Below are positions 355 through 38,032 of a stretch of DNA of 64,000 bases, piece by piece. Made by a program: the position numbers and the translations under genes. Each line of letters starts with the position of its first letter. Within the stretch, counting starts at the first letter, position 1. The notes under the pieces are model-generated. The model ran no database searches. It was not told where the DNA came from and saw nothing but the letters and a program-made list of their open reading frames with translations. Source of the DNA: Norana najaformis (taxonomy: Eukaryota; Annelida; Clitellata; Crassiclitellata; Hormogastridae); contig OZ029916.1 in NCBI GenBank assembly GCA_964023275.1, forward strand, positions 41,631,896-41,695,895, given 5' to 3'.

Positions 355-463
355 TTTAACTGCATCGAGAATTGCTTCGACAGCATCATGGACCTTGGAG
401 TGTATAGTTCCATGACGAAGCTCTTCATAGGCATAGATTCCCAGAGCACAAACACGGATGCAA
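355..463 (-). CDS. RALGAPA: RALGAPA exon 34 (last in window)
   Basis: 109 nt, [20 protein letters not shown] then [17 protein letters not shown], matching human [31 protein letters not shown]. It ends at a GTAAGT donor, so the gene continues past position 1 towards the missing Rap/Ran-GAP domain. Confidence 0.96.
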
Positions 464-21400: not shown

Positions 21401-22374
21401 TGACAACGGTTCAAGGCAAATATATTCTATCATCAAACTCTGTTTTTGTTAAAAGCGGTCGAGTATGGAAAGTAAAACAATGCCTGAAATGCGCTATAAA
21501 ATTCTTTCCTGAGTTTCGCCTGTCTTACATCCGCCTGTCTGCAGTCAATAACAAACCTGTGAAAACCTTGACATTATGACACAATAATCCTTTAACTCTA
21601 TTTTTAAAAAGTCCGATATATTTTATGACACAGTCAGCTGATTTTAACTGCTAATGATTCATTTTAAATGTCTATTTGTTTCTTTTTGTTTTTACGCCAC
21701 ACAGATTAGACACTGATTACTTTTACACGAATGATATATCATTCAGAGGTCCAACCTGCTACTCAAATACGTCATTTCACAGCATAACAAAAAATTAGTA
21801 TTACTATATTTTATTACTATAATGTAAAACTGATTTATTTAAAACCAATTGCTCAAATTAAATTCATGTTGGGGTATCTATACGGTAATAGTACTTGATT
21901 CGTTAGAGCACTCGGCTTGTAACTAGAAGAGTAGAGGTTCGGACTTCTCTGAGACGGTTACTATGTATGGAGCTTGAGCAAGTCTATTCATAATCTCTGA
22001 ACGCCATCGACTGATGCTTGGTCATTAGATAGTGGCGCTTAATAAATGCAGAAATAATAATAACGTAGATTAGAGAAGATAAATAAGTTACTCTAATTGA
22101 TAAAAAGTGACTTCCTTTTTGTCTTAACATCGCACCATGTGTAAAAATCCGGTTTATCTTCAGTTAAACCCATTGTATTTTTCTCAATCATGTTCGTGAT
22201 TAGACAGTCTCCGAAAATACAGCTGAGCGGCGTTTTACACGCATGTACTGAACTGAATCAATGATTACAGAACTTTTTAAATAATAATGGTTACTAGGAT
22301 TGTCGAAGACATGCCACCTAGCGAATGCACATGAATCTCATTCACGGAGCTTTACCACGCTCCAAATAATTTTG

Positions 22375-22471: not shown

Positions 22472-23436
22472 CACTTTCTTAGCCTCGACATATGAATGCT
22501 GCTGGCAAGTCCTCTTCCTCGCCGTCTGATCTTCCCACCGACAATGGGAGGGAGGGAGGAAGAGAAGGGAAGAAAGGAAGGAGGATTGAATGGATGGGTG
22601 GGTGAGTGGGTGAGTGGATGGATGGATGGCGGGATGGATGAAGGAAGGGAGGAAGGAAGGAAGGAAGGAAGGGAGGCAGAGACGGACGGATGGAGGGAAG
22701 GAGGAATGGAGAGAGTGAAGGAGGGTTAGAAGGACAGAGGGCTGGTAAGGTAAGGCAAGGTAAGGTAAGGTAAGGTAAGGTAAGGTAAGGTAAGGTAAGG
22801 TAAGGTAAGGTAAGGTACAGTACGGTATGGTATGGTATGGTATGGTAAGTCTAGGTGCTTGGGATGGTGGGCTAGGGGCTTCTCCTGTTTCCATACAAAG
22901 CGTCTTAACGCATGGCCAGTTCTGTGCACTTACACCCATGGCCTAGATTTTAGGCCATAGATCCAAAGTCTCTATCAAGTCTCCTCGCTGTCATTCAGTC
23001 TATCGATCTCAGCCGACACGTTTTTCACCGACAAAAACAAATTAACAGTTGACAGGTGCTATCCTGTTACGCACCGCAGCCTGGCTTCTGGATTATCTGA
23101 CCTGTTGGAATTCGACCCAGCTTCTCCAACGGATTATAATTTTGACTGCGAATTTGACTTGAAGCTAACATCGACTGATGCCTTGGGCATTATGATACCG
23201 GCGCCATAGAAGTCTTTAGCTTAGGTTAGATTAAGTTAGATTAGATTAGATATGCTACGTAGTTAGGCTAGCATAAGGTACAGCCCACTGAACGCACTGG
23301 TGAATGTACAGCGCCCTTTTTTCGACCTCGGTCGTGTTACGGCGCTATATAAATTGTCTTATTATTATTATTATTAGTAGTAGTAGTAGTAGTTGTAGTA
23401 GTAGTAGTAATAGTAGTAGTAGTAATGGTAGTAGTG

Positions 23437-23508
<72 letters not shown>

Positions 23509-26500
23509 ATAGTAGAAGAATAGGGTAGGATAGTGTAGGGTCGAAGGGAAGGCCAAGTAATGTTGGATAAGGTTGGGCATGGTCAGGTAAGGTCAGGCGA
23601 GATGTTAAGGTGATGGAAAATAAGGTAAGACAAGTCCAGGTAAGATTTTATTACCTCAGTCAACTATAACTCTTACTGAAGCATGCAGTCCTTTAGTTAA
23701 ATGATAAAGACAACCTAAAAATGATGTTTACTAAGAGAACGACAGTGTAGAGAGCGAAATGAATAACTTACGGCTATTTCCGCAAGAGTTGACCTTCGTC
23801 GCTTGTTATATGTCTGCATCGGGTCCACCCCCGCATTGTCAGCGCCTGGCCCAGCTGCTGAGTCAGATGTCGCCATCATCATCGGTTTTTCCTGTGCTTC
23901 TGACGACTCTTTCGGCAACACTGCCCGCCTTCCGGTTTCGAGTTTAACGATCCTCTTTTCATCGAGAAAGAGACCAACAACATCCGTTTCTTGTCTCGCT
24001 GCCTGCAAGTTGCGGATTTCTTCTTCGCTGGGATTGAGCAGATCTGGAAGCGACGACGATTTCCGCCGGGAATTAATTTCCGCCGGTATATGTTTCGAAC
24101 GAGCCCCTGCGGCTGCAGGTAAAGCAGCAGCAGAATCCAGAGCATCAGTAGTAACGTGAAGTTTCTTGGCATCAGGAATATTAACAAGGGCGTATGGTTG
24201 TCTTAAAACCGTGACGCTGTGAGCTCTGGGTCTGTACTGGGCACCTGTCTCGTCTTTATACGGCTGAGTCGATCGGCTTTCTCTGCTGAATCTGTGCTTG
24301 CCGGGTGGACTTTTCCTCGCGAGGTTGTTTCCTAGACTGGCAGATTCCTCGATGCTGACGCGGTGAAATCTGGGTAGGGCACCTGTTGGAACCGGCGTGA
24401 TTGCTTCTTCATCTTCGTCTTGAGCGCCGGTTGTTTGCGAATCCGTGTAGTTGATGTCAACAAGCACCTTGCTGTTGTCGTGACTAATTGACATGGATCG
24501 CACTCTTCCAATAAGAGATCGGAACACGTTCTTGTCCTTGGCTTTCGTAGAAGTCTCTTGTGATAAGACCTTCGTCAGGTTTGCCTTGACTGGAGCAGCC
24601 TCTCCTCCGACGGCCCTGCTATTCTGTCGCAACGATATCTCTCCAGGAATGGCGAACCTCTGCTTGTCCAGCCCGAAGGCCTGGTCTTGTCTCATAGTTT
24701 CAGCAAGGACCCAGTTATCGCTTGTGTCGATCACTGAAAATGATCCTCGCTTTTTCGAGAACGGGGCTGGCTTAGTGGGAGTGGATGGACGATCCTTCGA
24801 CGGGAAGGCAGAGGTCGTTTCAGGAAGCTGTCCGCCGCTGCCGTGTCGAAATCTCTGTCCCATGTTGTTGTTCCTGTGTTGCTGGCTCGTCGTCGAGTCC
24901 TTGTGAAGCCTGAGGAACGGCAATAGATGTCGTTGCTTAGGAGACGGATGTCCCGGTGGCACGGTCGATGACTCGTTCATTGAAGGGCCACTTCTGCTCT
25001 CTGATGAGGTCTTCCAGTCTTCGGCGTCCTCGCTGTCCTTCTCGAGTCGATCGTAGCTTCCTTCTGACAGCTTGGAATCGTAGCTGCTCACCGAAGTTTG
25101 ACGTTTCAGCAGCGATGCTCGCTTGGGATTGGCGCAAGCCGCCAGCTCATGCTGCGACATTTCTGCTTCTGATGTTGCTGGCGTTGCTTGTGATGCTAGA
25201 GACGAGATGTTCGTGTGTGGGATGTCGCGTGCAGCGTTTGTTTGGCGCCGGACGATGACGGGAGTAACTGAATGTTTCTTGGTCAAAGGGGGAGTGCCAA
25301 AGCTGAATTTTCTTGAAGTGCCGCTCTGAGATTCGGATCCTTTGACAATCGTTGAGCTGTCAAATTTTCGCTGTTGGATCAGCTTGTCGTGCAGAGAGGT
25401 AAAGATGTTTCGAAACCGCGGCTCGGAGATTCGGCGCTTTCCATCGGCTGAGCTCTTATCGTCGGAGATCGGCTGCGAGACCTGGATGCGAGAAATCCCC
25501 TGAAATTGACACCAAAGTCATTATTACTTTTACCAGAGGTCGAAAGGATCCTTTAGGAATTGAAATTATCCTTTGCACTGAAAGGGCCAATCCTCGCTGC
25601 TGTGAATGTTCCGCGAACAACGATTGCGTTAAAGCGGTGGATGGCCATGGGAATGAGCTGTCCGAAAAACGAAGCCTTCCTCTTGTGAAAAGTCGCTCGG
25701 GCCAGGTGTTAACCGAATCTGTTGCTGAAAGACATGCCATCTTGAATGATGGAATCAAGAGTTCAGAGGCCAAGGAAACAAAGCTGTAAGCTGGCAGGGT
25801 GGTGTCATTCTTCGGCACCTTTCTTTGGGCTGCAATCTCAGCAGCAGCAGCAGCCTGTTTAGCGGCTTTTGGCCGATATTAATCTGCGAAGGTGTCAACG
25901 ACTCTTGCAATTCAGGCATGGCATCTCCCGTCCTCCCAAGGAACAAGGGTCTCGCCATCGGGGCGCCTCCAAAAAGTCCAGCTGGCTCCTTAGATGACGG
26001 AAGTCAACTTTAATGAGGGTTTTGCAAATGATGTCATTAATAAGGTCATGTCTTGCCACCCGACCAGGGTCTAAGGGCCTGATAATCCGTGTGCGACATT
26101 TTCATCACTACATCCCCACAGGAACATTCATGAAGGCACACGGGTCAACTCCGAGTCGAAAACCAATTGTATTTCGAACAGCTTCAACACTGCCTTAGGC
26201 CGCAAACGCGACTGGCAAGGCCAGAAGCTAGTCGCCCGAGTGTTGCGAGTACATTGCCTTAACCACCAACTGATGATAATCTTATGTTATTGACGTTATT
26301 GTAAGTTTGGCAAAACTCTCTGAATCAAGGGGATCCCATGCAGACTGTTTGTGAGCCAGGGTTCCTTCTGGGTATGCTGTGCCTGATTCGGAAGACCAGA
26401 CTGTTAGGGAAGATACAAAGTGGAATCTGACTGCACATTACCCCCGAACAGGATGGTCGCTGTACTTGCGGCTGAGGCCAAAAAGGCAGGAAGTACCAGC

Positions 26501-27161
26501 GAGGATATTGGACGAATACCAAAGCCACCATCCCTGATTGGGAGAGAGGCTTGTTCCCAACTGCAGTCATTGAGTGCCAAGTTAAAGATATAATCAGCAG
26601 CAGCATCAACATCATTATCAGCATCATTATTTAGCAAACTTCTATAAAGTCGGTGCCAGTGCACAATGCATCAATCGATGGCGCACCAACACCAGTCTAA
26701 TCAGATCGATGACCAGAAGGTCAGTCCACCGATTATTATGGTTGTTGTTGTTGCTGTTGTGCCCAGAAGTCTGTCCACTGAGATCTGTGTGTTTAACTGG
26801 GTATCTGCATGTGGTCTCGCTTTAGATGAGGAGAGACTGCTTGGCCTCAGGTCTTTATAACGGAATATATGAGACATTTGGATTCCTGTCGCCGAACGAA
26901 TAACACCAAGGTCCCCCTACTGGGACGCGCTTCACTTGTTGGCATCGCTCAAGAATACATCGAGTATCTTTTGGTCCAGTCTCGAGCCAGCCGGATCAGC
27001 GATCTGCTGCCCCTGGGATACGCAGGTGCCGCGCTTTTGCATAAACATTGGGCGCACTTTGTTGGACCATAATCTTAGAACACCCTTTCAGTACATATGC
27101 AATAATAATGATAACGATAATGATAACAGTTATAATGATACTATATTCTTACTCTTATACA

Positions 27162-27248
<87 letters not shown>

Positions 27249-27805
27249 TGGTGAAATTACGTTTTGAACCTACCTTACATCGCACTTGTTTAGATCAGCT
27301 AGCCATGTGCAGAGCGCCTTTGCGACTTACTCCACGGTCGTTCTACGTAAATGTCTTCACAGACACGCAGACAATAGACGCTCAGCTGCAATTGACTGGT
27401 TAGAGAAACTCCCATAGCAGACTAAAACTCATGTAAAGCCTAAACAGTGACGTCTTCATTCACTTCGACTGTTGTGGAATCTGCCTTAGACTAAATGAAT
27501 GACATCCAACATGATGTAGATTCGAATGCATAACCTCCAGTATAAAGGATTACATAAAATGCACACTAATATGCATACATTCTTACTCTTTTACATACAT
27601 GTATATTTTATAGATGCACATATATACACACCTTAACTTCTATATATATATATACATATATATAAATGTTCCTTGTCTTATTTGGAGACTAGGTTTAAGA
27701 TAAGCACTATATCTGTAGGGCCACACTATATATAAGGTAGGTCCTACATAATTATGTACAGGGCCTACCTTACTGTATATTGTATATATACACAAGGCGT
27801 ATATT

Positions 27806-27886
<81 letters not shown>

Positions 27887-28016
27887 ACGATATTTCGTGA
27901 TCATCGTCTGCATGAATGTCATTTTTTATCTGGGAACTAGCGATGTCTTTGGGCTTCTCAGTGGCAAAAGTGACAAAATAACATATCAATATGCTGGACA
28001 GAAATCGACAGTCAAT

Positions 28017-28059
<43 letters not shown>

Positions 28060-30613
28060 TCATATATATCCATATATACATATATGTGCAACCAATATAT
28101 AAATATTTACTGGAATGTCCTGTATATCTATAACGCTTACGCTATGTTACGTCCTCAAACACCATTGCGTTGCACGCTGTGCATAGCACATAAACAAACG
28201 CTTGTGCATCCTTCTGCTATTCTTGTGTTCGTGAAACCACAGGAGGCAGCTTTTAGGCGGTAACACGATAATAGAAATGACAATACGCATAGGCCTATGG
28301 ATGTATTGTAAAGGCCTATACACGTGCGGTGAATGCCTTGAAAACTAGGTCTACGTGTGCATATAAAACGATTCAGTGCACTCCATGGGAGCATTCAACT
28401 GATTCACCATTTTCGCCAGATATATCCGCTGTGATGAGAGAAGCTAAAACACGCCATGCGTTAACACACAGACACGATGAGAAAAAGCTCGGCTCACCCA
28501 ACGCATTATGGAAAGCCATGCACATACTTACATGTACAACGAGAAAATGTATAATTATGATCACTATTACCAGTGTTGGGATAAATAGTCCGGGTGACTA
28601 GTTAAATAGAATAGTAAATACCTGTAGGAAACTATTTGAATAGTAATAGGTGGTTCTAATTTAACGGGACTTAGGTCCGTTTTGGGTCTACCATTTGTAT
28701 CCCAATAATCTACACACTGGTCAATGAATTTGTTCTTTTGGAATCAATAAAGTTTTCATTCGTTCATTCATTCATTCATTTAAAATAGTAAATAGCTGCG
28801 GACTACTGCAAATAGCACACAACTATTTAGAAACTATATGACTATTATCGGTTTCAGTTATAGATAATTGTTTAGAATGCTTTCAATTTTTTACTACATT
28901 AACATTCAGTTAGTAGTTCTGGTTGGCTTAAAGCAAAAGCAACTGTTCAAAAGTCTCATCGGATAAGCGATTCCTTTTCTTTTTGAGAATTAGTGCTGCA
29001 TTACTAAATAGTCTCTCTACTGCAGCACTGGATGGAATACTTGTGTTTAAACGCAGAAACACTATTACACTAGGGGGATTCAGAGGTTACCCGACCTTTC
29101 ACCCCTGTCCAATTTAATTTTGGAGGGCTACGCTATTTTGAGTTGTGCTGCACGGTGATCTGTTCGGCAGTGCGCCTGTTTTGTAATCCATCGACTACGA
29201 GTTCGAACCTGAGTGGACAACACGTAACGATCCCCGGCATATGTTCGTGTTCGTGTGCTTCTGTCATCAAGCAGTAGAATTTGGTACCGACATAAGCTAG
29301 GGCATTAACATGCTCTGGGCCCGTGCCCAGTATCTTGGGATTCGTCCACTACCAGCTCAGCGAAGGAGGGACAAATAAGACAACAGATTGGTACACATGT
29401 CCCGTATTCATGTTTCGTCCCTTCTGCACACATTTCTGTAGGTGCCTATGAATACTAACTACATGTATATATGTAAATATGTACGAAAGAATGGTTATGG
29501 GGCACGCTGGTTTTTCGGTAACGCGTTTGGTCAATGACCATACGTTTGCGGGTTCGATTCAGTGTAACGTCCCTGGGAAAGTTGCGCACACTGTGCCTCT
29601 GTCACCAAGCAGAATAAATTGGTACCGGCTTAAGCTGTGAAGTAAACGGGAAGTCATGCGATTCGCTGGCCCCGTGTCCAGGACCTTGGGAGTCGTCCAT
29701 TGTCGGCTCAAGGACCTTAAGAATAGGAAATGAGTGCCTCCCCTACGTCTCACTTGCGTGATATGGGATACTTTTGTTACGGCTGAACGAACGAACAAAC
29801 GAACGATTGATTGACCGAATGAATGAACGAATGGATGAATGAATGAGAGCATGCAATGTTTACCAGTTCAACCGATGGATCGAATAATCTCCGGCGGCTA
29901 ACTAACAAATCACAGTTTGATTGAAAGCAGCGTTGCATGCGGACAGTTCATCGAACAACGGCCTCCAATGCGCATAGCTGCGAGTTGACTGTGAAGGAGG
30001 CGATGCGGTCTAATTACATCCAAGTGTAATCATAATTAAGTTGTTGTTGTTGTTGTTGTGTGTGTTCTCCGGTCCTTTTACTTATGGATTGTGTTTTTGG
30101 TGGATCCTAAAAGGCGCTATATGATTATCTGGATACATCGGTCTAAAATCATTTGTATATTGCTGCTGAATTTGAACGCGCATTATGCAATGTGAGGAGT
30201 TTCAGAGTCGTATTATCCGTGATGTTGAAGACGATGATGACGACGACGACGATGACGAATATGCTGCTGCTTATGATGATGATGAAGACATCGATGGTAT
30301 TGATGATAATGTTGATGCTGTTCTTGTTATTGTTGTTGTTGCTGCTGCTGTTGATGATGATGATGGCGATGATGTCGACGACGACGACGATGACCAATAT
30401 GCTGTTGGTACATATGATGATGATGAAGACGTCAATGAAATCGATGATTATGATAATGTTTATGCTGTTCTTGTTGTTACTAATGCTGTTGCTGATGGTG
30501 GTGGTGGTGGTTATGATGATGATGAAGATGATGATGATGATAATGATGATGATGATAATGATGATGATGACGACGACGATGATCATGGTGGTGATGATGA
30601 TAATGATGATGAT

Positions 30614-30644
<31 letters not shown>

Positions 30645-31278
30645 ATGCTGATGATGATGATAATGATGGCGATGATGACGACAACGACGATGATCCACAC
30701 GACATGACGACGGCCAACACCGGAACAATTGCTTCCTGGTAATAATTGACAACTTATAATGTTTATAATCAATAAACTTACTAAAATACTAGAATATTTT
30801 TTAAAAAGATGGACGTGGGCCTAGGTCTAATGTAACAGCTAAACAAAACATTACATTGCAATTGCATTAACAATAACAAATAGGATTACAATTACGACTG
30901 CATTTACAATTACTATCACAATCACAATCTGAATTACAATTACAATTGCAATCACAATCACAATCGAATAGTCTTACAGTAGCATGCTCTTCTTTCAAAT
31001 GGAGATTCTTACCGGATAGCTGGTGGCCATGTGCATGTTGCCAGATGAGATGTTTTCAAACAGCGGTTCCGAATGATCCGATGAGAAACTGTTGCTGGCT
31101 GCTGCGGCAGATGACGGTGAAGAAGCCAATGGATGCTTCGTGGACGCCTGCTCCATGACCTGATTCATAAAGCGCGATCAGACATGCAAAACCTTTTCAA
31201 CGCCATCCACTACGCGAGTATACAGTATATGAAACATCGATCGACCCAACATCTATAGATACAATTACAATCGATATG

Positions 31279-31360
<82 letters not shown>

Positions 31361-34300
31361 GTTATAGAAAAAGAAATGCATTGAAATAATTTATATATAG
31401 GCCTACAGATGATATTTCTATGCACTATATATACATACTGCGTTGTAAATAAAGACCTGTCCAGGTGTGGACATAAAATAGATTTATATGGAAATAGCCA
31501 TTTTAAGCGTGACGACTATCACTTCGCCTCATTCTCCTCTTTCATCCTCTCCTCCTCCTTCTCCTCCTCCTCCTCAAAATGAACCAAATTGAATCAACTG
31601 AATCAGTTTGAGTAAACTTTAATCTAACTGAACCAAATAAATCCTACTGACATAGCACTTGGAGAATCAAATTTAGACCAGGTGAATCCAACCAATTAAG
31701 TCTCACTGAATCCAGTTGAATCAAACTGAATCATATCGAACGTACACTAACTGAATCCAACTTTATCAAGCTGAATCCAATTGAATCTAAACTGAAGCTA
31801 GTTTTATGTCATTTAACGCCATTATAAACATCTGGGGCACGGTAGTCAACTGGAGAGAGTGCTCGGCTTGTAACGCGGAGAGTACGGGTTCGAATTTCCC
31901 CTGAAACGGTCACTGTGTAGAGGCCTTGAGCAAGTCCTTAAATCACAATTGCTCGGCGCCATCGACTGATGCTAAGTCTTTAGACAGTGGCGCCTAATAA
32001 ATGCAGAAATAATGAACTGTTGCACTCAAGTGACGCGAACTTCCTCACGTGTCCTTTGTAATCGCATGGCATTCCAACAAGACCTCCAACAAGACCTCGC
32101 GCCTAATAAACACGACCTGTGAGCCCTCAGCAAGGATTTTAATAGAAAGGAGAACTTAATATCTGGCGATTGCGAATTGCCATGTCGCAAAGAGCTTTTT
32201 GAAAGGCGCTATACAAATATTCAGCTACACACGTGTGTGAATACAAAGAGCTTTGGCATCCAGTGCAATCGATGACCTATGCAAGGATCAGTAATAGACG
32301 GATGATGCAATTCAGTTTATGTGACTGTGGCGACATCTGCACGACTCCATAGTGCTGCGTTTCGATGTCATGTAACAGATTACATACACGTCTTACGATA
32401 CAAAATGAAGGCATCTGCTGTTGTAAACGCATGGAGCATGCAACGCATATATGTATATAAACATTACCTATATACATATCCGAATGCAAAATCGTAAGGA
32501 TCGATTCTCGTTAAAAAGGGTTTAATTTGAAAAAATGAGTTCAAATTGTTTGAAGTATATTTAGCAAAAATAACAGTAAGCGTTGATCCAAGAAGACTAT
32601 TCAGTAATATATTGCGTTATATCGTAATGTAGAGGACGCGGTGGTGTAGTGGTATGGTATGTGCCTCGTAATCGTAGGGTCGCGGCTTCGAATCTGCCTC
32701 AAGCCACTCCGTAGCGACCTTGGACAAGTTGCTCATCTACAATTGTCTGTAAAGAAGGCAACGGAAAACCATCTCACTCATCTTATCCCCCGGTGGCATA
32801 AAGCCAATGGACCTGCCTTCGGGCAGAGAACTCATCATCGTCGTCATCGTCGTCGTCGTCGCGTAATGTAATACAAGTGCGTATTTATCATAGAGCCATC
32901 CAATCAAGTGTCTATTAAAGGCGAATCTCATTAACCTAGATTATGCTCGAATAACTGGAAGATCCACCATATGGATCCGCCTGCATGACGAGCTCTCGCG
33001 CACACAGCACCCAACTAACGGAGTTCTTCTTGCGTTGAACTGTAGGCAATGTGTGGCTGATGCATTCATAGACCTTAGATGCATTTGATGTCTAGAACTC
33101 AATGACAGGCACGTGTTTCTATTTTTACTCGTAAAAGCCGTTAACTGTAAAGTGATCGTTAAGCCAAGCCTTCATTAGGCTTTCAAAGCGTTGGAATTTA
33201 CTGATTAAACCCAGGAAATGGAGGGTCGATTAAACACAAGCACCCGTGATAATGGCAAACATGTCGGAAGTGATACAGGGGCCTATAGTTTACACAAGAG
33301 AGTTCAGTTCTTTCTGACCGCCTTCTAATGACTAAATTGTGAATAAAATGTAACAATGTCAATTTCTGCTTCGGCCTTTCACTCTAAAAGCAAAACATTC
33401 CTCTTTCACACATCGTACCCTGACACCCCTTCTTCCTCTTATCTCTCTCTCCCCTCTCCTACCCCAAACACCATACCCCGTAGCTGCCACGCTGTCTCTC
33501 CGTCTGACCTTTGGATCTTGACCTGGAAGCGAACCCTTTTGCCTATCGATTTTGTTTTGACTGAGCGCCTGCGAATAAGCTGGTCCCCGCGACGTGGCTT
33601 TCGTTGAGCGCTGTAGAAATCTCGGAATTACAATTACGATTACGATCAAGAGATTTCAGTTCTTTCTTAGCGCCTTCCATTGACTAAATTGTGAATAAAA
33701 TGTAACAATGTCAGTGTTGTTCTAACAATAGCCTATGCCTAATTATTTACACTAACCTTTCAGCAGTCGAAGTATTATTTATTCAAAGTAATCGCATGTA
33801 TCGGATCAGCTTAACTGCGCAGTAGTCGGCCAAACGCAGGCCTAACTCTGCTGTATAGACATGCAGTGGTTTAATCCAAATAAAACGGTATAATAGGCCT
33901 ACAATATTTGTTTTTCGGCAGTCACTCCGCAAGTAACGAGCTCCTCAAACCGATCTCCTATGTATCCATTGAAAGCAAAGGCATGGGTCCTCGCTTAGAA
34001 GCGTTTTAAATGTAAAATTTGTTTAAATTATAAAAACGAATAATACACAGCAAAATTAAACGCGGATCCAACATAACAACAATATGATAGCACTCGGTTC
34101 AGGAATGCACATTACGAGCCTTTAACTTGGCCTAAGGGACCAGTGGAATACTGAAGCAGTGGTCTGAATTGTCGCCATATACAATAAAGGTGACATGCAA
34201 ATGTGGTTTACAAATAACTGACCTACAGACACAGGCTGCATAATAAATTTTACTTGACTGTCCAAAGCAGCCGTTACGGAAAGTAAATTCGCTCATAAGT

Positions 34301-36634
34301 TTCTTATGTTTACATATAAATATTAACTACAGCCATTATGCATGCATATATAGGCCTATGTAATTGCACATCGTTTAGACTGATGTGCAGTGAAGTCCAG
34401 TTATACTTTCAGCTGTAAAGTTGACAAGCGATAAAGTCCTAAAAATACCCCTTTATTTCTATACAAAAGCGTTTACACAAGTTTACACAAATAGGTATAA
34501 CAAGTTAGAGTCTGATAACGCACACCCCATGCATGCATCCATATATTTTTCAGCCTTAAGATACACTTGTGTAGATCAGCTAGACAGCCAAGTGTGCAAT
34601 GCTTTTGAGAGTTTCTTAAAGAAGCTATGTAGACACACATTCACACACACACACACACACACAGCCATACACACACAATAAATACTCTAGATAGGCTTAA
34701 CGTAATACTACTGTAATAGGCTTGATAGTAGGTTTACTAGATTGCTCGTATATATGTAATGTTTGGTGTGGAAACACGTTTACACTTATTGTCTACAAAA
34801 TGTGTATTTCACGAGAGTTTTGGCTACGTTAATGAGTGAGTTTACAGTTTTCCACAAATTACATTGCAGTTAATTGTACTTTGGCATGTAATGTCTAATT
34901 CAAAAGATTTTAGCCACACTAGTGTGTGCTGTTACCACACAGTAGCAGAACACTCGCGTGTCTGTTCAGAGAGAGTCGCATTACACGACGAAGGAATATA
35001 TTTAACAAAAAAGCTTCAATTCTCAGCTTTTTAGTTGATTGCTGGGACATATGGCCAGCGAATTCCAGGTCTGGGGGTCGACAGCTCAAGGCTCTGGAAT
35101 TCGCTGCTTCGGTCCGATCTGAAAGTCTATGATGTAATTTATGTTTGTGTTAGGGCTAAAGTCTTGTCCTTTTCGCACTGTTTATCCCCCGTAGCCTGCC
35201 TTTCAGTCTTGGGGCTTCATGGATCTGAGCTACTGGTTCTGCCTGTAGGACTGTGACTTCTGAAAGCGGTTTCACTTATTAAAGAGACCACTGAATAGAC
35301 AAGATGTGACAAGAATTGGAGTTTAATATATACTGATTTACATGTGTCATCCGTACTGTGTTACTCTCTCTGTCTCTGTCTATCTGTCTGTCTGTCTGTC
35401 CGTCCGTCTGTCTGTCTTTGTCTCTGTCTCTGTCTGTCTCTGTCTCTCTCTCTCTCTCTGTCTTTCCGTCTCTGTCTCTGTCAAGTGTCTGTCTGTCTGT
35501 CTCTATCTAACTCTCTCTCTCTGGCTGGAATTAATCCTTATTCCCTCATTCTTAAACTGAGCAGTTCCTTTACGTTAGTTGCAACCATTAAAGTATTTAG
35601 CAAGTCCTATAATCCAAAAACCATTAGCAGTCCAGTGGAATGCACGATTATTAGCCGGTTCAAATCGGTACAGAAAAGAGTGTTTGGCTTTTGCGGGAAA
35701 TACTGCCGACGTTTCGTGCACGTGATTTCTGAACGGATGTTCTGAAGAAGTAGGATGTCAATTCGAACAATGAAGCGCACAATTGACAAGGATATACACT
35801 GCCTACGAAGACACTCGCATTATATAATAGTGTCTTTACTACTGCGTCTGTCTGTCTGTCATGTCTCTGTCTGTCTGTCTATCTGTCTGTCTGGCAGGCT
35901 ATGGAGGATAAGCAATACGAAAAGGATCACCAGACGATAGATCTAATCTAGAATTTCTTACATTATTTCACTTACGTAAACCTGTTTAGCTGCGTAGCCG
36001 ACTGGTCTGAGCGCTCGCCTTTTAACTCGAAGTTTGGGGGCCTCAGGTACCTGAGACAGTTACTGCGTATTGTGATCTTGGGCATGCCCTTCACGCATAG
36101 CTGCTCATCGATTGATGTTTAGTCATTAGCTAGTGGCACTTAAAGACACCGAAATAATAATAAGTAAAGCTCGTCTATTTGAAAGTCAGAAGTAAAGTCA
36201 CAGGCCACAATACGTTCTAAACGAGGCGGCCTAATGTCTAGATCGATGTGTAGGGCTGCTCAACCGTAGCCTATATTAGACAAATGCATTGAGCCGCCTG
36301 TGCCTAACCAGACGTAACATAGACTTCTTTTAAACCAGCACGAATGCGCAACGAATGAATTCAGATTTTATTGACTAAATGCCATTTGTTTATACGATTT
36401 CTGAATTAACTTTAAACTCCGATTTGAAGCAGATTTTCTTTACTACAGGAAGATGGATCATCCTGTATACAACCCTCAGCCTTGATTTTACAGACTTTAC
36501 CTTCAGAAGTTATTGTCGACTTTACCGACATCAACATAATGATCATGCTTTAAACCTTCACCGTAAACCGCTGTTGGTTATAAATGTTTAGTTGGCTCTC
36601 AGATATAGTTTATATTAGTGTCTTTACTATTGCA

Positions 36635-36673
<39 letters not shown>

Positions 36674-37724
36674 GTCTGTCTGCCTGCCTGCCTGTCTGCC
36701 TGCCGGCCTGCATGTATGTATGTATGTACCAGGTATGTACTTTATGTATGTATGCATGTACGCGTGTGTGTATGTATGTATGTATGATTGTATGCATGTG
36801 TGCATGTATATATGTATGTATGTATGTATGCATGCGTGTATGTGTATGTATGTACGTATCTGGGCATCTAAGGACCTCTAAAAAGCGCCGTGTACATGAC
36901 TGTCTAAGACATTTAAACATATGCCTTATCATTCCTTATGTCTCACATGTCCGTCTGTCCCAACATATGTCCCAACATATGAAGAAATGTAACTTGAACT
37001 GAAGTAGAACGAACTGTAGGCCAACGTATGTTCACAGGAAGACTGTATATGTATGCGTCAAAGCATTTATAGTGCGCCTTTCAAGAGCTGACACTACATA
37101 GTCTGGTCAGAAAGTTGGCAGGCATCTGTCTGGAGCACATTCAAAGTCCCCTGTTACTAGACAGTTTTTATGTTAGAGCACTATATAAACCCACATTAGT
37201 ATCCGGCTGTAGACCACAGTGGTGATCGCGCTTTGTTATCAGACATTTGCTTTCCATGAGAGTTCTGAGCTGACATTAGTGTCTGCTGTTTCCATGCATT
37301 ACGTTTGCAAATGTCGACTGTTGCGTTAGGTATTATTATAGTGGCGCTAAAGAAGTTCTCCTACTTGATCAAGCGTGCACTAACTACTCACCTGAGCCGA
37401 ATGCAGGTAGTCATCATCACGGTTGACTGCTTCTGCCCGCGTTGTTGTTGTGATGTCATCGTCGATGCTGTCACTGTCCGTGACGTCATCGATGAACCTC
37501 ATCTCCTCATCAGCTGACTCTACTATGATCAGTCGGTTATTGTCGTGATGCAGGAGGATGCCGCTACGGTTGCTGAGGCTGCGTTCGGAGGCGGAAGAGG
37601 AGGCAGGACAGGTCATTTTGAAGACTGGCTGCAGATGATGCGTCCGATTCAACGGACTTCCTCCTCCTCCTCCTCCTCCTCCTCCTCTTTCGCCTCCTCC
37701 AGCGCTATCTGACGACGACGCCAT
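355..37724 (-). CDS. RALGAPA: Ral GTPase-activating protein subunit alpha (RALGAPA1/2 orthologue), 34 exons, C-terminus outside window
   Basis: RalGAP alpha pairs with RalGAP beta to switch off the small GTPases RalA/RalB. The catalytic Rap/Ran-GAP domain sits at the C-terminus, which lies past position 1 and is not seen here. Exons (minus strand, 5' to 3'): 37724-37392, 31159-31013, 25499-23772, 20043-19932, 19180-19070, 18308-18256, 17593-17536, 17181-17138, 16279-16177, 15458-15385, 14897-14771, 14136-14111, 14062-13998, 13468-13282, 12986-12915, 12478-12335, 11700-11560, 10952-10879, 10128-10017, 9672-9550, 9217-9094, 8712-8632, 8160-7936, 7458-7030, 5978-5751, 5438-5362, 4660-4624, 3904-3726, 3355-3278, 2833-2681, 2306-2172, 1601-1470, 1039-978, 463-355. 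They sum to 5883 nt = 1961 codons with every phase matching. Motifs shared with the human protein include [39 protein letters not shown] and [10 protein letters not shown]. Exons 4-34 are near certain; linkage of exons 1-3 is inferred from phase-0 junctions. Confidence 0.93.
978..1039 (-). CDS. RALGAPA: RALGAPA exon 33
   Basis: 62 nt, [20 protein letters not shown] then R, matching human [20 protein letters not shown]. Acceptor TTTCAG, donor GTATTT, ends phase 2. Confidence 0.92.
1470..1601 (-). CDS. RALGAPA: RALGAPA exon 32
   Basis: 132 nt, [20 protein letters not shown].. to ..SVSDVYVK, matching human [23 protein letters not shown]. Acceptor CAAG (weak), donor GTCAGG. Confidence 0.96.
2172..2306 (-). 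CDS. RALGAPA: RALGAPA exon 31
   Basis: 135 nt, [20 protein letters not shown].. to ..SAGQNQ, matching human [30 protein letters not shown]. Acceptor GTGCAG, donor GTTAGA. Confidence 0.97.
2681..2833 (-). CDS. RALGAPA: RALGAPA exon 30
   Basis: 153 nt, [20 protein letters not shown].. to ..[14 protein letters not shown], matching human KYKQGKLHAYKLICNTM..FYNIMHCGLLH. Acceptor TTTCAG, donor GTGAGT. Confidence 0.96.
3278..3355 (-). CDS. RALGAPA: RALGAPA exon 29
   Basis: 78 nt, [20 protein letters not shown] then APWVFQ, matching human PPVLIPPLRILTPWLFKA. Acceptor TTTAG, donor GTACTA, phase 0. Confidence 0.93.
3726..3904 (-). CDS. RALGAPA: RALGAPA exon 28
   Basis: 179 nt, [20 protein letters not shown] then [20 protein letters not shown].., matching human [28 protein letters not shown]. 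Starts the helical region that precedes the GAP domain. Acceptor GTGCAG, donor GTTCTA. Confidence 0.97.
4624..4660 (-). CDS. RALGAPA: RALGAPA exon 27 (37 nt)
   Basis: 37 nt, [12 protein letters not shown], acidic. Acceptor TTCCAG, donor GTTTTC; phase 0 in, phase 1 out, which is exactly what exons 26 and 28 need. Confidence 0.68.
5080..5235 (-). repeat. Repeat D copy (intronic short interspersed repeat, reverse)
   Basis: Carries the family hallmarks in reverse: a 'cttcacttgaagc' block, a 'gctatagaagt' end and a short TTAGATTA tail. The family recurs in introns of both genes in this window. Confidence 0.6.
5362..5438 (-). CDS. RALGAPA: RALGAPA exon 26
   Basis: 77 nt, [20 protein letters not shown] then SSVFFE. 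Acceptor ACTAG, donor GTGAGC, ends phase 0. Linker; supported by phase and splice sites. Confidence 0.78.
5560..5700 (+). repeat. Repeat D copy (forward)
   Basis: Forward copy: 'aaaggcattaattgatggtc' and a 'ctaaataaaacc' block followed by 'caatctgaaatcacaatcc'. Diverged from the other copies. Confidence 0.6.
5751..5978 (-). CDS. RALGAPA: RALGAPA exon 25
   Basis: 228 nt, [20 protein letters not shown].. to ..[10 protein letters not shown]. Ser/Thr-rich linker. Acceptor TTTCAG, donor GTACTT; phase 1 both ends. Confidence 0.85.
6025..6310. repeat. Repeat D inverted pair with (GATTA)n end
   Basis: A forward copy (about 6030-6160, 'atcataatgcccaaggcatc') is followed by a reverse copy (about 6205-6285) that ends in a TTAGATTAGATTAGATTAGA run at about 6286-6305. 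The head-to-head arrangement could fold into a hairpin in RNA. Confidence 0.6.
6718..6965 (+). repeat. Repeat D copy (forward)
   Basis: Begins with TCTAATCTAATCT, then 'cataatgcaaaatgcatgaa', 'ggttgcttcaagtga', 'aaccagaagtcaggc' and 'acagacaagtctta'. One of the longer copies. Confidence 0.65.
7030..7458 (-). CDS. RALGAPA: RALGAPA exon 24
   Basis: 429 nt, [20 protein letters not shown].. to ..[10 protein letters not shown]. Ser-rich disordered linker ([16 protein letters not shown]). Acceptor TTTCAG, donor GTATAG; phase 1 both ends. Sequence identity to vertebrates is low, but length and position fit the long central linker. Confidence 0.85.
7560..7905. repeat. Degenerate tandem repeat, unit about 60-70 bp
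   Basis: About five diverged units share 'aaatgaccagcat(a/g)aatt' and 'aacaaacttag..cta' blocks. Lies wholly in RALGAPA intron between exons 24 and 23. Confidence 0.6.
7936..8160 (-). CDS. RALGAPA: RALGAPA exon 23
   Basis: 225 nt, [20 protein letters not shown].. to ..[20 protein letters not shown]. Contains a His run (QHHHHLP) and a [11 protein letters not shown] motif like human RSSSTSDI, within the phospho-regulated linker. Acceptor TTGCAG, donor GTTTGT, phase 1. Confidence 0.85.
8189..8280. repeat. (TATG)n microsatellite
   Basis: Interrupted tetranucleotide tract immediately upstream (in gene orientation) of the exon 23 acceptor. Confidence 0.9.
8632..8712 (-). CDS. RALGAPA: RALGAPA exon 22
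   Basis: 81 nt, [20 protein letters not shown] then YGHPPPR, phase 1 at both ends, acceptor TCTCAG and donor GTAAGA. Weakly conserved linker; supported by splice sites and phase. Confidence 0.72.
8960..9050 (+). repeat. Repeat D fragment
   Basis: Short copy: 'acttctatgttgccattatc', 'gtaatgcacaagtcatca' and 'ggccacctcaaagcaaaacc'. Confidence 0.55.
9094..9217 (-). CDS. RALGAPA: RALGAPA exon 21
   Basis: 124 nt, [20 protein letters not shown].. then basic [14 protein letters not shown], matching human METLTKVLARNLYSLDL. Acceptor TTTCAG, donor GTTGGA, ends phase 1. Confidence 0.93.
9550..9672 (-). CDS. RALGAPA: RALGAPA exon 20
   Basis: 123 nt, [20 protein letters not shown].. to ..[13 protein letters not shown]; nearly the same as human TLIVAWIKANLN and [11 protein letters not shown]. 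One of the strongest identity blocks. Acceptor AACAG, donor GTAAGT, phase 0. Confidence 0.97.
9808..10010 (+). repeat. Repeat D copy (forward)
   Basis: 'acttctatagtgccgttatc', 'gcaaaaggcatcaatca', 'cagttgctcgtaagcaat', 'gagtccccgaagactggaag' and 'caatctgaaaaagatgagac' in order. Among the better preserved copies; abuts the exon 19 donor. Confidence 0.65.
10017..10128 (-). CDS. RALGAPA: RALGAPA exon 19
   Basis: 112 nt, [20 protein letters not shown].. to ..GELASTLLQ, matching human EQMLLVLLRVTESVLK..GRLAGPLFQ. Acceptor GCACAG, donor GTATAT. Confidence 0.95.
10440..10850. repeat. 400-bp pyrimidine-rich tract
   Basis: Strong C/T bias on the plus strand with CCTT/CTCC clusters; in the gene-sense strand it is purine-rich. 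It creates a long open frame that I do not take as coding. Confidence 0.6.
10879..10952 (-). CDS. RALGAPA: RALGAPA exon 18
   Basis: 74 nt, [20 protein letters not shown] then TRQTW, matching human [24 protein letters not shown]. Acceptor TTGTAG, donor GTACGT, ends phase 2. Confidence 0.95.
11150..11515 (-). mobile_element. tRNA-derived SINE remnants (two heads)
   Basis: On the minus strand, about 11515-11430 reads like a tRNA head: A-box-like TAGTCTAGTGGC, then a B-box-like GGGGCTTCAAATCCC. A second, more decayed head lies at about 11330-11240. No tRNA cloverleaf is intact. Confidence 0.5.
11560..11700 (-). CDS. RALGAPA: RALGAPA exon 17
   Basis: 141 nt, [20 protein letters not shown].. to ..[10 protein letters not shown], matching human [21 protein letters not shown]. 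Acceptor TTTAG, donor GTTTGC, phase 0. Confidence 0.93.
12120..12192. repeat. (AATC)n microsatellite
   Basis: CAATCAATCAATCAATCA runs with interruptions inside the intron between exons 17 and 16. Confidence 0.85.
12335..12478 (-). CDS. RALGAPA: RALGAPA exon 16
   Basis: 144 nt, [20 protein letters not shown].. to ..[11 protein letters not shown], a low-complexity linker at the place of the variable acidic/Ser linker in human. Acceptor TTTCAG, donor GTGAGG, phase 0 both ends. Confidence 0.85.
12915..12986 (-). CDS. RALGAPA: RALGAPA exon 15
   Basis: 72 nt, [20 protein letters not shown] then HWFQ, matching human [24 protein letters not shown]. Acceptor CACAG; donor GTTGGT is weak but keeps frame. 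Confidence 0.9.
13282..13468 (-). CDS. RALGAPA: RALGAPA exon 14
   Basis: 187 nt. Encodes [20 protein letters not shown].. to [16 protein letters not shown]; the end matches human [21 protein letters not shown]. Acceptor TTTCAG, donor GTGTGA, ends phase 0. Confidence 0.93.
13625..13860. repeat. Degenerate (GATTA)n tract
   Basis: Many ATTAGATT and GATTACAT blocks spread over about 230 bp. Looks like the decayed tail of repeat D without a recognisable body. Confidence 0.55.
13998..14062 (-). CDS. RALGAPA: RALGAPA exon 13
   Basis: 65 nt, [20 protein letters not shown] then EK, matching human ARVIVIRWLVSFWLEP. Acceptor CTGCAG, donor GTAGGT, ends phase 2. Confidence 0.92.
14111..14136 (-). CDS. 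RALGAPA: RALGAPA exon 12 (26-nt microexon)
   Basis: A 26-nt exon, (D)MLPQPLNQ, bounded by TTTTAG and GTGACA. It fits the phase gap between exons 11 (phase 1) and 13 (phase 0) exactly, and corresponds to human LDIPQMRPKP. The following human segment of about 25 residues has no counterpart here. Confidence 0.75.
14500..14650 (-). repeat. Repeat D copy (reverse)
   Basis: 'ttcacttgaagtgcccatca', 'actgatgatacc' and 'cggacttcgaaatacaattt' match the reverse family order. Confidence 0.5.
14771..14897 (-). CDS. RALGAPA: RALGAPA exon 11
   Basis: 127 nt, [20 protein letters not shown] then [22 protein letters not shown], matching human [28 protein letters not shown]. Acceptor TTTTAG, donor GTAAAG, ends phase 1. 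Confidence 0.93.
15385..15458 (-). CDS. RALGAPA: RALGAPA exon 10
   Basis: 74 nt, [20 protein letters not shown] then MVTE, matching the human segment FLEALLKYIVIQ. Acceptor GCTTAG, donor GTATTT, ends phase 0. Confidence 0.85.
15565..15810. repeat. Degenerate (TCTAATC)n and duplicated segment
   Basis: Two approximate copies (15490-15610 and 15650-15760) share 'ttaattaatttattcattac', 'ttctgagtgca' and 'aatccatctgat'. A diverged tandem duplication of about 160 bp with TCTAATC-rich ends. Confidence 0.6.
16060..16170 (+). repeat. Repeat D fragment
   Basis: 'aggcattttttattggtgtc', 'ttcaaagcgaaaccacaga' fit the family core. Confidence 0.5.
16177..16279 (-). CDS. RALGAPA: RALGAPA exon 9
   Basis: 103 nt, [20 protein letters not shown] then [15 protein letters not shown], matching human REGVRLFLLWLQALQNNC..SCLIPGF. 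Acceptor TTTTAG, donor GTAAGT, ends phase 1. Confidence 0.93.
17138..17181 (-). CDS. RALGAPA: RALGAPA exon 8
   Basis: 44 nt, (G)[14 protein letters not shown], matching human LILKKLLHTGNSLK. Acceptor CTTTCAG, donor GTAAGA; begins phase 1, ends phase 0. Confidence 0.92.
17536..17593 (-). CDS. RALGAPA: RALGAPA exon 7
   Basis: 58 nt, [20 protein letters not shown], closely matching human [20 protein letters not shown]. Acceptor TTTGTAG, donor GTGAGT; ends in phase 1. Too short to appear as a stand-alone open frame; it was found by looking for the segment missing between exons 6 and 8. Confidence 0.95.
17715..18060 (+). repeat. Two adjacent repeat D copies
   Basis: Copy one (17715-17890): 'ctaatctaatcattatcata', 'gcttctaagcaaaaccacat', 'ccacagactggaggacaggc', 'gataagcaattggaaaaaga'. 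Copy two (17895-18060) repeats the same blocks. Fills much of the intron upstream of exon 7. Confidence 0.65.
18256..18308 (-). CDS. RALGAPA: RALGAPA exon 6
   Basis: 53 nt, [18 protein letters not shown], matching human KSQREELDAILFIFE. Acceptor TTTCAG, donor GTAAGA; starts phase 1, ends phase 0. Confidence 0.93.
18779..18840 (+). repeat. Element E copy (60-bp hairpin unit)
   Basis: 'acatgtacagcaccctttt' then 'gctctataaattgtct'; same unit as at 23307 and 62195. Confidence 0.6.
19070..19180 (-). CDS. RALGAPA: RALGAPA exon 5
   Basis: Encodes [20 protein letters not shown] then [17 protein letters not shown], matching human [20 protein letters not shown]. Acceptor TGCAG, donor GTGAGC, phase 1 at both ends. 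Confidence 0.95.
19391..19610 (-). pseudogene. L2/CR1-like LINE ORF2 C-terminal remnant
   Basis: Minus-strand frame contains [20 protein letters not shown] and [11 protein letters not shown], the end of LINE ORF2 proteins (usual form: WN.LP then FK..LKT.LF). Short, no RT core, inside RALGAPA intron 4. Confidence 0.6.
19932..20043 (-). CDS. RALGAPA: RALGAPA exon 4 (conserved N-terminus begins)
   Basis: Encodes [20 protein letters not shown] then [17 protein letters not shown]. This aligns with the very start of human RalGAP alpha (..[22 protein letters not shown]). The human initiator Met would fall near VF here, but this exon has no Met there, so translation must begin upstream. Acceptor CCAG, donor GTGAGC, ends in phase 1. 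Confidence 0.93.
21886..22060 (+). mobile_element. SINE-A copy (tRNA-derived)
   Basis: tRNA-like head 'gagcactcggcttgtaac' with B-box-like 'gaggttcggacttctc', body 'gccatcgactgatgct' and 3' end 'cttaataaatgcagaaataa'. Two further copies lie at 31833 and 35985. Confidence 0.75.
22372..22472. repeat. (TTA)n microsatellite, about 33 units
   Basis: Nearly perfect TTA tract. It makes artificial poly-Leu/poly-Ile frames. Confidence 0.97.
22545..22735. repeat. GGAAG/GGAT purine-rich tract
   Basis: GGGAGG, GGAAGGAAGG and GGATGGATGG repeats on the plus strand. Confidence 0.9.
22744..22848. repeat. (GGTAA)n pentamer array
   Basis: About 18 pentamers, degrading to GGTAT at the right end. On the minus strand this is the same (CCTTA)n tail seen on SINE-B copies. 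Confidence 0.95.
23105..23258 (-). repeat. Repeat D copy (reverse)
   Basis: 'tttgacttgaagctaacatc', 'ccttgggcattatgatacc', 'gcgccatagaagtcttta' then TTAGATTAGATTAGA. Confidence 0.65.
23307..23376 (+). repeat. Element E copy (60-bp hairpin unit)
   Basis: 'gtacagcgcccttttttcga' followed by 'ggcgctatataaattgtc' and TTATTATTA. AGCGCC and GGCGCT can pair. Confidence 0.75.
23370..23516. repeat. (TAG)n microsatellite
   Basis: About 47 TAG units with a few TAA and TGG changes. It produces poly-Ser and poly-Tyr frames that are not genes. Confidence 0.95.
23772..25499 (-). CDS. RALGAPA: RALGAPA exon 3: 576-codon disordered, Ser/Arg-rich extension
   Basis: A long open exon between TTTCAG (25500-25501) and a GTAAGT donor, phase 0 at both ends. 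No folded domain is recognised; it is rich in Ser, Arg, Lys and Pro. Basophilic-kinase-like motifs stand out: KRRIS, GRVRSMS and YRPRAHS (both RxRxxS), RRKSSSLP, and NKRRRST near the exon end. Its last codons (TLAEIA) join in frame to exon 4. A 1.7 kb exon is unlike the 26-429 nt exons that follow. That an ORF this long has survived with strong splice sites supports it as real coding sequence. Membership in RALGAPA rather than a separate gene is an inference. Confidence 0.75.
25530..26664 (-). pseudogene. Decayed non-LTR retrotransposon: RT C-terminus plus RLE-like region
   Basis: Minus-strand fragments in the order expected for one element. At 26664-26440: [20 protein letters not shown] then [10 protein letters not shown]. 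At about 26100-26050: HGLSG. At about 25975-25900: [18 protein letters not shown], a TGA where Trp is usual, then ARVVDTFAD. At 25860-25530: [21 protein letters not shown]. The PD..VD pattern resembles the restriction-like endonuclease region of R2/NeSL-type LINEs. Stops and frameshifts show it is dead. Sequence up to about 27070 may be its 5' part. Confidence 0.7.
27164..27246. repeat. (ACT)n(AAT)n compound microsatellite
   Basis: About 15 ACT then 13 AAT units, both runs clean. Confidence 0.95.
27640..28055. repeat. (TA)n arrays flanking 150 bp of unique DNA
   Basis: TA runs at 27640-27665, 27810-27882 and 28020-28050. Confidence 0.95.
28571..29062 (-). pseudogene. hAT-family DNA transposon remnant (transposase C-terminus and terminal repeat)
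   Basis: The minus strand at 29062-28932 reads [20 protein letters not shown], then [23 protein letters not shown] and stop. This is the hAT C-terminal dimerisation domain ([10 protein letters not shown] is the signature). At 28571 the plus strand reads CAGTGTTGGGATAAATAGTC, the usual hAT terminal inverted repeat start, followed by AGTAAAT-like subterminal repeats. The subterminal part is split by a roughly 130-bp insert (about 28660-28785) that carries AATAAAG and a (CATT)n end. The N-terminal and catalytic parts are missing. Confidence 0.85.
29130..29350 (+). mobile_element. SINE-B copy (tRNA-derived), diverged
   Basis: Head 'gctgcacggtgatctgttcg', B-box-like 'gagttcgaacctg', body 'tggtaccgacataagct' and 'gggcccgtgcccagtatctt'. 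Confidence 0.7.
29498..29800 (+). mobile_element. SINE-B copy
   Basis: Head 'ggcacgctggtttttcggta', B box 'gcgggttcgattcagtgtaa', body 'ttggtaccggcttaagctgt', 'ggccccgtgtccaggacctt', 'gagtgcctcccctacg'. Ends in an ACGAACGAA run rather than (CCTTA)n. Confidence 0.78.
30217..30692. repeat. (GAT/GAC)n trinucleotide tract, 475 bp
   Basis: GAT and GAC units interrupted by GTTGCTGCT blocks; open over its length on both strands (poly-Asp, poly-Met, poly-Ile, poly-His). Two copies of a roughly 120-bp higher block (30260-30340 and 30395-30470) share 'tatgatgatgatgaagac' and 'tgctgttcttgtt'. Confidence 0.9.
30845..30968. repeat. (ACAATT)n degenerate hexamer tract
   Basis: ATTACAATTACAATTGCAAT-type repeats just downstream of exon 2 in gene orientation. 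Confidence 0.85.
31013..31159 (-). CDS. RALGAPA: RALGAPA exon 2 (N-terminal extension)
   Basis: An open block of 49 codons ([20 protein letters not shown].. to ..NMHMATSYP) between an AG acceptor at 31160-31161 and a GTAAGA donor. Both ends are phase 0, so it joins exons 1 and 3 without a shift. It is Ser/Ala-rich and probably disordered. The second codon is an ATG, so transcription starting just upstream could also use it as a start. Confidence 0.6.
31280..31362. repeat. (CA)n(TA)n microsatellite
   Basis: About 31 CA units followed by 9 TA units. Confidence 0.97.
31575..31800. repeat. Degenerate decamer array (AACTGAATCC-like)
   Basis: About twenty imperfect 10-11 bp units: AACTGAATCA, GTTGAATCAAA, GCTGAATCCAA and so on. 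Confidence 0.75.
31833..32012 (+). mobile_element. SINE-A copy (tRNA-derived)
   Basis: Head 'gggcacggtagtcaactgga', B box 'acgggttcgaatttcccc', body 'gcgccatcgactgatgcta', end 'cctaataaatgcagaaataa'. Best preserved of the three SINE-A copies. Confidence 0.82.
32632..32870 (+). mobile_element. tRNA-derived SINE with (TCG)n tail
   Basis: A box 'gtggtgtagtggtatggtat', B box 'gcggcttcgaatctgcc', body 'gaaggcaacggaaaaccatc' and tail CATCGTCGTCATCGTCGTCG. One copy only; different body from SINE-A and SINE-B. Confidence 0.72.
33355..33655 (+). mobile_element. L2/CR1-like LINE 3' end (copy 1)
   Basis: 3' UTR block 'cttttgcctatcgattttgt', 'aataagctggtccccgcgac', 'gagcgctgtagaaatctcgg' and tail ACAATTACGATTACGATC, with ORF2 end remnants before it. 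Same unit at 38925, 40815, 43255, 54825, 55985 and 58475. Confidence 0.8.
34630..34680. repeat. (CA)n microsatellite
   Basis: Short ACACAC tract. Confidence 0.9.
35358..35525. repeat. (CTGT)n/(CTCT)n microsatellite
   Basis: TCTGTCTGTCTGTCTGTC grading into CTCTCTCTCT. Confidence 0.95.
35845..35895. repeat. (CTGT)n microsatellite
   Basis: GTCTGTCTGTC runs. Confidence 0.92.
35985..36168 (+). mobile_element. SINE-A copy (diverged)
   Basis: 'gctgcgtagccgactggtct', 'gagcgctcgccttttaactc', 'gctgctcatcgattgatgtt', 'cgaaataataataag'. Confidence 0.7.
36635..36868. repeat. (CTGT)n then (TATG)n compound array
   Basis: GTCTGTCTGTCTGTCTGTC, CCTGCCTGCCTG, then TATGTATGTATG with CATG variants. Confidence 0.95.
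37392..37724 (-). CDS. RALGAPA: RALGAPA exon 1 (putative start codon, N-terminal extension)
   Basis: Proposed first coding exon, 111 codons. It opens with ATG ([15 protein letters not shown]), holds a run of nine glycines encoded by a (CCT)n tract on the plus strand, then an acidic stretch ([12 protein letters not shown]), and ends in phase 0 at a GTGAGT donor. No homologue is recognised. The start is chosen as the first ATG of the open frame; a (GACA)n microsatellite lies directly upstream, so the 5' UTR is repeat-bearing. It could instead belong to a separate upstream gene. Confidence 0.6.
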
Positions 37725-37735
37725 TCTGCTACAGT

Positions 37736-38032
37736 GACAGACAGACGTCTGCACTAGACACAGGCAGACAGATAGACAGACACACAGACAGACAGATAGA
37801 CTCACAGACAGACAGACACACAGACAGACAGACACACAGAGGCAAGCGAACAGACAGACAGACGAACAGAAAGTGACGGACGGACAGACATAAACGGACA
37901 GGATATAATGACATCAAGATATAGAAATGGACGGAGGGACGGACGGATAGACAGACGTACAGAGACGAACAGAGCGACAGACAGACAGACAGATGGACGG
38001 GCAAAGACAGACAGGCACATACACATAGGCAT
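37736..38032. repeat. (GACA)n array directly upstream of the RALGAPA start
   Basis: Roughly 300 bp of GACAGACA with GACG and CACA variants. It begins 12 bp upstream of the proposed ATG, so it would fall in the 5' UTR or core promoter. No TATA box or initiator was identified. Confidence 0.92.

Follow-up and report, generated by a model that had tools for sequence, protein, structure and literature searches.

Where does the alpha subunit of RalGAP, a brake on Ral signalling, begin in this genome? In the window (the whole stretch of 64,000 nucleotides that was analysed), the exon at which homology to known RalGAP alpha proteins starts, exon 4 below, has no initial methionine, and three open blocks lie upstream of it on the same strand. 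The first-pass annotation had taken these blocks, of 111, 49 and 576 codons, for phase-0 exons joined in frame to exon 4, which would place a long disordered arm before the known N-terminus. It had also named a separate upstream gene and alternative promoters as other possibilities. Coordinates and translation confirm the blocks, their phases and their frame (Table 1): exons 1-3 and exon 4 have canonical splice dinucleotides, every junction is in phase 0, and exons 1-3 joined read 736 residues without a stop. We favour, with a probability of about 0.4, the reading that exons 1-3 form a distal coding unit with its own promoter, from which a minor long isoform of RalGAP alpha would be made, and that ordinary RalGAP alpha comes from a proximal promoter. 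An alternative distal 5' end of this kind and a separate upstream gene are nearly tied.

Table 1. Features of the locus, in order along the minus strand. Percentiles of splice sites are among all AG (acceptors) or all GT (donors).
Feature	Position	Strand	Description
Exon 1	37392..37724	minus	111 codons from ATG; donor CAG/gtgagt (percentile 100); possible first exon of distal unit
Exon 2	31013..31159	minus	49 codons; acceptor weakest of exons 2-4 (percentile 89.3); donor CCG/gtaaga (percentile 99.2)
Exon 3	23772..25499	minus	576 codons; Ser/Thr- and Arg/Lys-rich, probably disordered; acceptor percentile 95.2; donor GCC/gtaagt (percentile 93.8)
Read-through tail of exon 3	23715..23771	minus	18 codons, then stop (23717-23715); codon score -0.10 per codon
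AATAAA	23647..23652	minus	63 nt beyond the stop of the read-through tail; might serve a separate gene as polyA signal
Second candidate proximal start	22934..22939	minus	MG/gtaagt, context GCCATGG
Third candidate proximal start	22136-22138	minus	lone Met codon
Candidate proximal first-exon end	21557..21574	minus	MSRFSQ/gtttgt, in phase with exon 4; donor score 1.1 (percentile 94.6)
CpG-depletion boundary	20950..21450		best position 21300, 2 lnL interval; CpG o/e 0.46-0.47 below, ~0.9 above
Exon 4	19932..20043	minus	start of RalGAP alpha homology; acceptor percentile 99.6; Val codon where Met is expected
Later RalGAP alpha exons	355..19180	minus	rough model, 25 pieces

By its N-terminal homology to RALGAPA1/2, the downstream gene is RalGAP alpha. 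Exon 4, together with the exon after it, matches the human RALGAPA2 chains of PDB entries 9qu1 and 9qwp (E 2.7e-12 for 9qu1 chain A), and tblastn places the exons of six RalGAP alpha proteins in collinear order along the minus strand as far as the left end of the window. The alpha-solenoid region PF20412 was recovered above the cut-off in the exon at 9439-9675 (E 3.6e-08); the Rap-GAP domain PF02145 would lie outside the window, since the gene continues past its left end. Our rough model of the gene has 26 exons, some of them uncertain. Among the RalGAP alpha matches listed, the lowest E-values belong to nemertean, gastropod and brachiopod proteins, at similar distances. In two trees (FastTree and IQ-TREE fast) the window's RalGAP alpha forms a long branch that falls outside the bilaterians sampled, and we draw no placement from them.

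The observation that exon 4 aligns with the start of RalGAP alpha and lacks its methionine holds up. In tblastn, three relatives align from residue 1 to window position 20037, which pairs their initial Met with a Val codon (20037-20035); the exon contains no in-frame ATG, and the MF[S/T/G]KK start of RalGAP alpha was not found in it. We compared the locus with 124 RalGAP alpha proteins, many of them isoforms or from close species, made up of 120 listed of 207 matches and of four from a separate search (which gave six, two of them shared). MF is the beginning of 98 of the 124 (in Strigamia, one of the 98, at an upstream Met). Most of the remaining 26 are molluscs, which start 4-7 residues earlier and in which the old Met has often been lost (I in Babylonia, L in Aplysia, K in Mercenaria). 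The mollusc proteins (MSxxLxMFRK start) are like the one proposed here in that the start codon has shifted upstream and the old Met is free to change, but the shift is of only 4-7 residues, not 736, and the window's sequence does not group with the molluscs in the two trees.

Exon 4 does contain an ATG out of the conserved frame (20039-20037), and ATG-TTT-TC can be read from 20039, where so many relatives begin with MF, an overlap whose chance we estimate ourselves at a few per cent. The missing start could then be a local frame change, real or due to an assembly error, with RalGAP alpha starting at this ATG, as elsewhere among animals, downstream of an intron in the 5' UTR or of a trans-splice acceptor, and with exons 1-3 unrelated to it. 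We consider this very improbable: the conserved frame reads through at the right length with Val at the Met position, and the losses of the old Met in molluscs are precedents for losing this one.

Exon 3 is very likely coding. It lies within a stop-to-stop frame of 600 codons, and the longest frames that arose by chance had 355 codons in 500 Markov-1 sequences of exon 3 composition and 208 codons in 40 Markov-1 windows of 64 kb; the frame is thus far above chance. Its own frame has an in-frame codon score of 0.137 per codon; none of the other five exceeds 0.046. Exons 1 and 2 are likely coding. As evidence for these two, codon scores were dropped, leaving exon 3 alone supported by them, because they do not discriminate: exon 1 scores 0.155 against 0.167 for one antisense frame, and exon 2 gives 0.154, 0.123 and 0.092 across frames. 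Searching the 64 kb for exons of the same classes, we found a single initial exon of the exon 1 class (donor score at least 3.8, at least 200 nt), on the minus strand; loosening the donor threshold to 0.9 brought the number to six, still without any on the plus strand. Internal phase-0 exons of the exon 2 class, likewise confined to the minus strand, numbered two under the strict setting (one within 25.5-37.4 kb) and 16 at donor 0.9 (four within 25.5-37.4 kb). The plus strand is a fair control, since it has comparable numbers of sites above the thresholds (374 acceptors and 193 donors, where the minus strand has 454 and 248) and also contains 10 open internal exons, all phases counted, to the other strand's 72.

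The splice sites had been called good; their strengths are unequal, with acceptors and donors ranking from the 89th percentile to the very top (Table 1). The phase-0 junctions are weak evidence, each having a chance probability of 1/3. The 5' end given for exon 1 is provisional, because the reading frame stays open as far as 37913 and possible acceptors lie just 5' of the ATG. Composition of the joined 736 residues fits disorder, with 58% A/R/G/Q/S/P/E/K and 19% W/C/F/I/Y/V/L. A Pfam search with these residues returned no family at E of at most 10, and neither they nor exon 3 by itself had a match in PDB or Pfam.

Known RalGAP alpha proteins (RALGAPA1, RALGAPA2 and Drosophila CG5521) are homologous to the window's gene from exon 4 onward; they start at the exon 4 Met or at most 44 residues before it, whereas here there is a Val and a possible 736-residue arm. 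Inspection of the N-termini of the relatives did not bear out the arm: neither sequence length nor phmmer at E 10 reveals it in any of the 124 proteins, of which the longest has 2565 aa, and their longest upstream parts are of 44 residues (Ptychodera) and 27 residues (Strigamia). The 736 residues gave four blastp matches to the 124 proteins, all at chance level (E 4.8-6.8), all internal and none N-terminal. Long RalGAP alpha forms could have surfaced, because the 207-match search covered proteins of ~1450-4600 aa. That the arm is missing in distant phyla is compatible with a lineage-specific arm and does not exclude one. Homologs of joined exons 1-3 were not found at E of at most 1 among 7984 candidates, proteins of ~916-2915 aa, a range above the size expected for the product of a separate gene; this absence is weak evidence, because low-complexity stretches may dilute the 100 query words. 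A literature search restricted to open-licence articles returned no paper on a long RalGAP alpha N-terminus.

The sequence between exons 3 and 4 bears on all readings. In 20060-23771 no donor, whatever its phase, scores at least 2.5. Any proximal first exon would thus have to use a weak one, and we regard this as the main point favouring exons 1-3. Weak donors are nevertheless frequent in this gene, with 17 of the 26 in our rough model below 2.5, and a proximal start is possible. Three in-phase ATG exons that might supply it, exon 3 aside, appear between 20044 and 23771 at a donor threshold of 0.9, the one ending in MSRFSQ lying ~260 bp from the CpG boundary. Their density, about one per kb, equals that of control stretches (12 in 25600-37391 and 6 in 38000-46000), and none of the three is therefore significant.

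The link between exon 3 and exon 4 is favoured by the strong acceptor of exon 4 and its lack of an in-frame Met, by the in-phase GTAAGT at the exon 3 donor with non-coding-like codons beyond it, and by the lack of a credible alternative 3' exon: the sole acceptor at or above the 97th percentile in 20050-23700 enters a simple-repeat peptide and was rejected. It is disfavoured by the rank of the exon 3 donor, no higher than the 93.8 percentile, and by the resemblance of the 1.7-kb block, with its nearby stop and AATAAA, to a terminal exon. Such a terminal exon is what one would expect if exons 1-3 were a separate gene on the same strand, encoding a lineage-specific disordered protein and ending either in exon 3, at the stop 57 nt past the donor and with its own polyA signal 63 nt further, or in a 3' exon that escaped recognition. 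The start of RalGAP alpha would then be independent, near 21-22.5 kb. The longest coding exons are usually terminal, which we count in favour of a separate gene, as we do the absence of the arm from the 124 relatives. On the other side, a separate gene requires that a GTAAGT in phase should by chance stand close to where the frame ends, the 18 read-through codons score as non-coding-like (a small sample), AATAAA occurs six times on the minus strand in 19.9-23.8 kb, and no homologous separate protein was found among those of ~916-2915 aa. With the CpG pattern described below, which divides the two units, we hold a separate gene to be a strong contender, though short of even odds.

CpG o/e falls into domains of 0.46 (1-21300), 0.88 (21301-45400), 0.45 (45401-54400), 0.89 (54401-58700) and 0.35 (58701-64000). 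The gain from a boundary at 21300 was reached by none of 2000 bin shuffles. This boundary falls in the interval separating exon 4 from exon 3, at a distance of 2.5 kb from the latter. Exons 1-3 are not in the CpG-depleted domain of RalGAP alpha; they are on the CpG-normal side, which extends to 45.4 kb, with o/e values (0.95, 0.78 and 1.05 for exons 1, 2 and 3) that go with that of the sequence upstream (0.75 in 37725-45500), a shared state that also fits a separate gene. TpG/CpA is raised in RalGAP intron sequence, consistent with CpG depletion by deamination of methylated CpG, and is mostly ~1.0-1.2 in the sequence immediately beyond the boundary, with high values returning in some bins of simple repeats around 30-31 kb. 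We infer that the depletion is the scar of gene-body methylation. Methylation climbs sharply past the start site in oyster (PMC4378273), and in sea squirt it drops sharply at the ends of transcription units, with a transgene showing an unmethylated zone to ~1 kb downstream of its start site (PMC3827831). Over 1-64000, CpG o/e is sharply bimodal (0.35-0.46 against 0.88-0.89), as mosaic gene-body methylation predicts; no gene was identified in the depleted domain at 58701-64000.

As an internal control, the boundary of the neighbouring PLD-like gene is at 53950 (53400-54500), at a predicted coding exon (53863-54072) that we read as its first; this one gene is the only internal control of the CpG reading, in which methylation is inferred from composition. 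Just upstream of exon 4, CpG o/e is 0.30 (20044-21299), so this segment is probably transcribed as an intron of the main RalGAP alpha transcript, and exon 4 would thus be spliced to something upstream. Since the depletion ends at 21.3 kb, the main RalGAP alpha promoter is probably near 21-22.5 kb.

These results weigh on the main reading of the first-pass annotation, in which RalGAP alpha always begins with exons 1-3 and carries the arm constitutively. Exon 4, with its strong acceptor and no in-frame Met, the in-phase joins and the want of a good donor between exons 3 and 4 all speak for it, but CpG depletion would then be expected from near 37 kb and is seen from 21.3 kb, and none of the 124 relatives has the arm; we think it unlikely. 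What stands of the proposed arm is that its exons look coding, that their composition is of the disordered type and that an in-frame splice is possible; what falls is the arm as the standard N-terminus, given the 0/124, the lack of any relative of exons 1-3 among proteins of ~916-2915 aa and the end of the CpG domain at 21.3 kb. By the CpG boundary and the 0/124, the two possibilities named beside it, a separate upstream gene and alternative promoters, are a better fit than a constitutive arm.

In the reading that we favour, the distal promoter would make exons 1-3 a coding unit of its own, and a short first exon at the proximal promoter (~21-22.5 kb) would supply the start codon of a RalGAP alpha of normal length. 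Splicing of exon 3 to exon 4 would add ~736, mostly disordered, residues in a minor or tissue-restricted isoform. A study of the complex describes kappaB-Ras as binding the N-terminal domain of RG-alpha, at the tips of an extended hexamer and far from the catalytic site (PMC12314375). That would put the arm next to the domain that binds kappaB-Ras, at the outermost part of the RalGAP complex, and phosphorylation of the arm or partners bound to it might affect localisation rather than catalysis. RalGAP alpha is regulated by AKT and 14-3-3, and the arm was examined, in four motif classes, for basic-directed Ser/Thr sites that might bring a long isoform under the same control. The motif [RK][RK]xS occurs 8 times, against 1.7 in shuffles (0/2000 reach 8); the AKT-type RxRxx[ST] is marginal (3 against 0.87, P 0.049), and neither Rxx[ST] (16 against 11.5, P 0.09) nor RxxSxP (1 against 0.38, P 0.31) is enriched. 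The simplest role for such an arm, disordered and enriched in [RK][RK]xS, would be that of a docking segment controlled by phosphorylation. Our tentative proposal, which we put a little under even odds, is that this lineage has a RalGAP alpha arm of its own: 736 disordered residues at the kappaB-Ras end, with clusters of basic-directed phosphorylation sites, acting as a regulated recruitment platform that is absent from the other RalGAPs examined. It may have originated by exonisation or by capture of an upstream gene, which would have freed the old start codon to mutate.

A precedent in the same pathway is exon 1b of C. elegans ral-1, an upstream first exon reported to encode a nematode-specific N-terminal extension, with at most 13% of expression (PMC12407918). 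As in the long isoform proposed here, a protein of the Ral pathway gains a lineage-specific N-terminal stretch from a first exon further upstream, with a minor share of expression. Exon 1b differs in belonging to the GTPase, not to the GAP, and in lying a few hundred bp upstream; it is also backed by transcripts, whereas the arm is predicted from genomic sequence. If the long isoform exists, the arm would extend the kappaB-Ras-binding domain of the alpha subunit, offering a natural test of the placement and regulation of the complex and an example of a gene capturing its upstream neighbour. If exons 1-3 are instead a separate gene, the locus is a warning that gene models may go astray where exons happen to agree in phase and a start codon has been lost; it is also an example of how, without RNA data, transcription-unit ends can be marked by a boundary of CpG depletion.

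The neighbour upstream of exons 1-3 is a PLD3/PLD4-like gene of the phospholipase D family on the same strand (47793-54072, minus), with PF00614 at 51787-52017 and PF13918 at 50878-51177 and 49156-49416. Beyond it, a 154-codon frame (55525-55986, minus) resembles by eye the end of a retroelement reverse-transcriptase protein, with no Pfam match at E 0.1. A weak reverse-transcriptase-like frame is at 61312-61599 on the plus strand (PF00078, E 0.051, below the cut-off). Also on the plus strand, a tandem-repeat open frame of 168 codons (59517-60023) reads (A)SEDHASEDHASQEDL.
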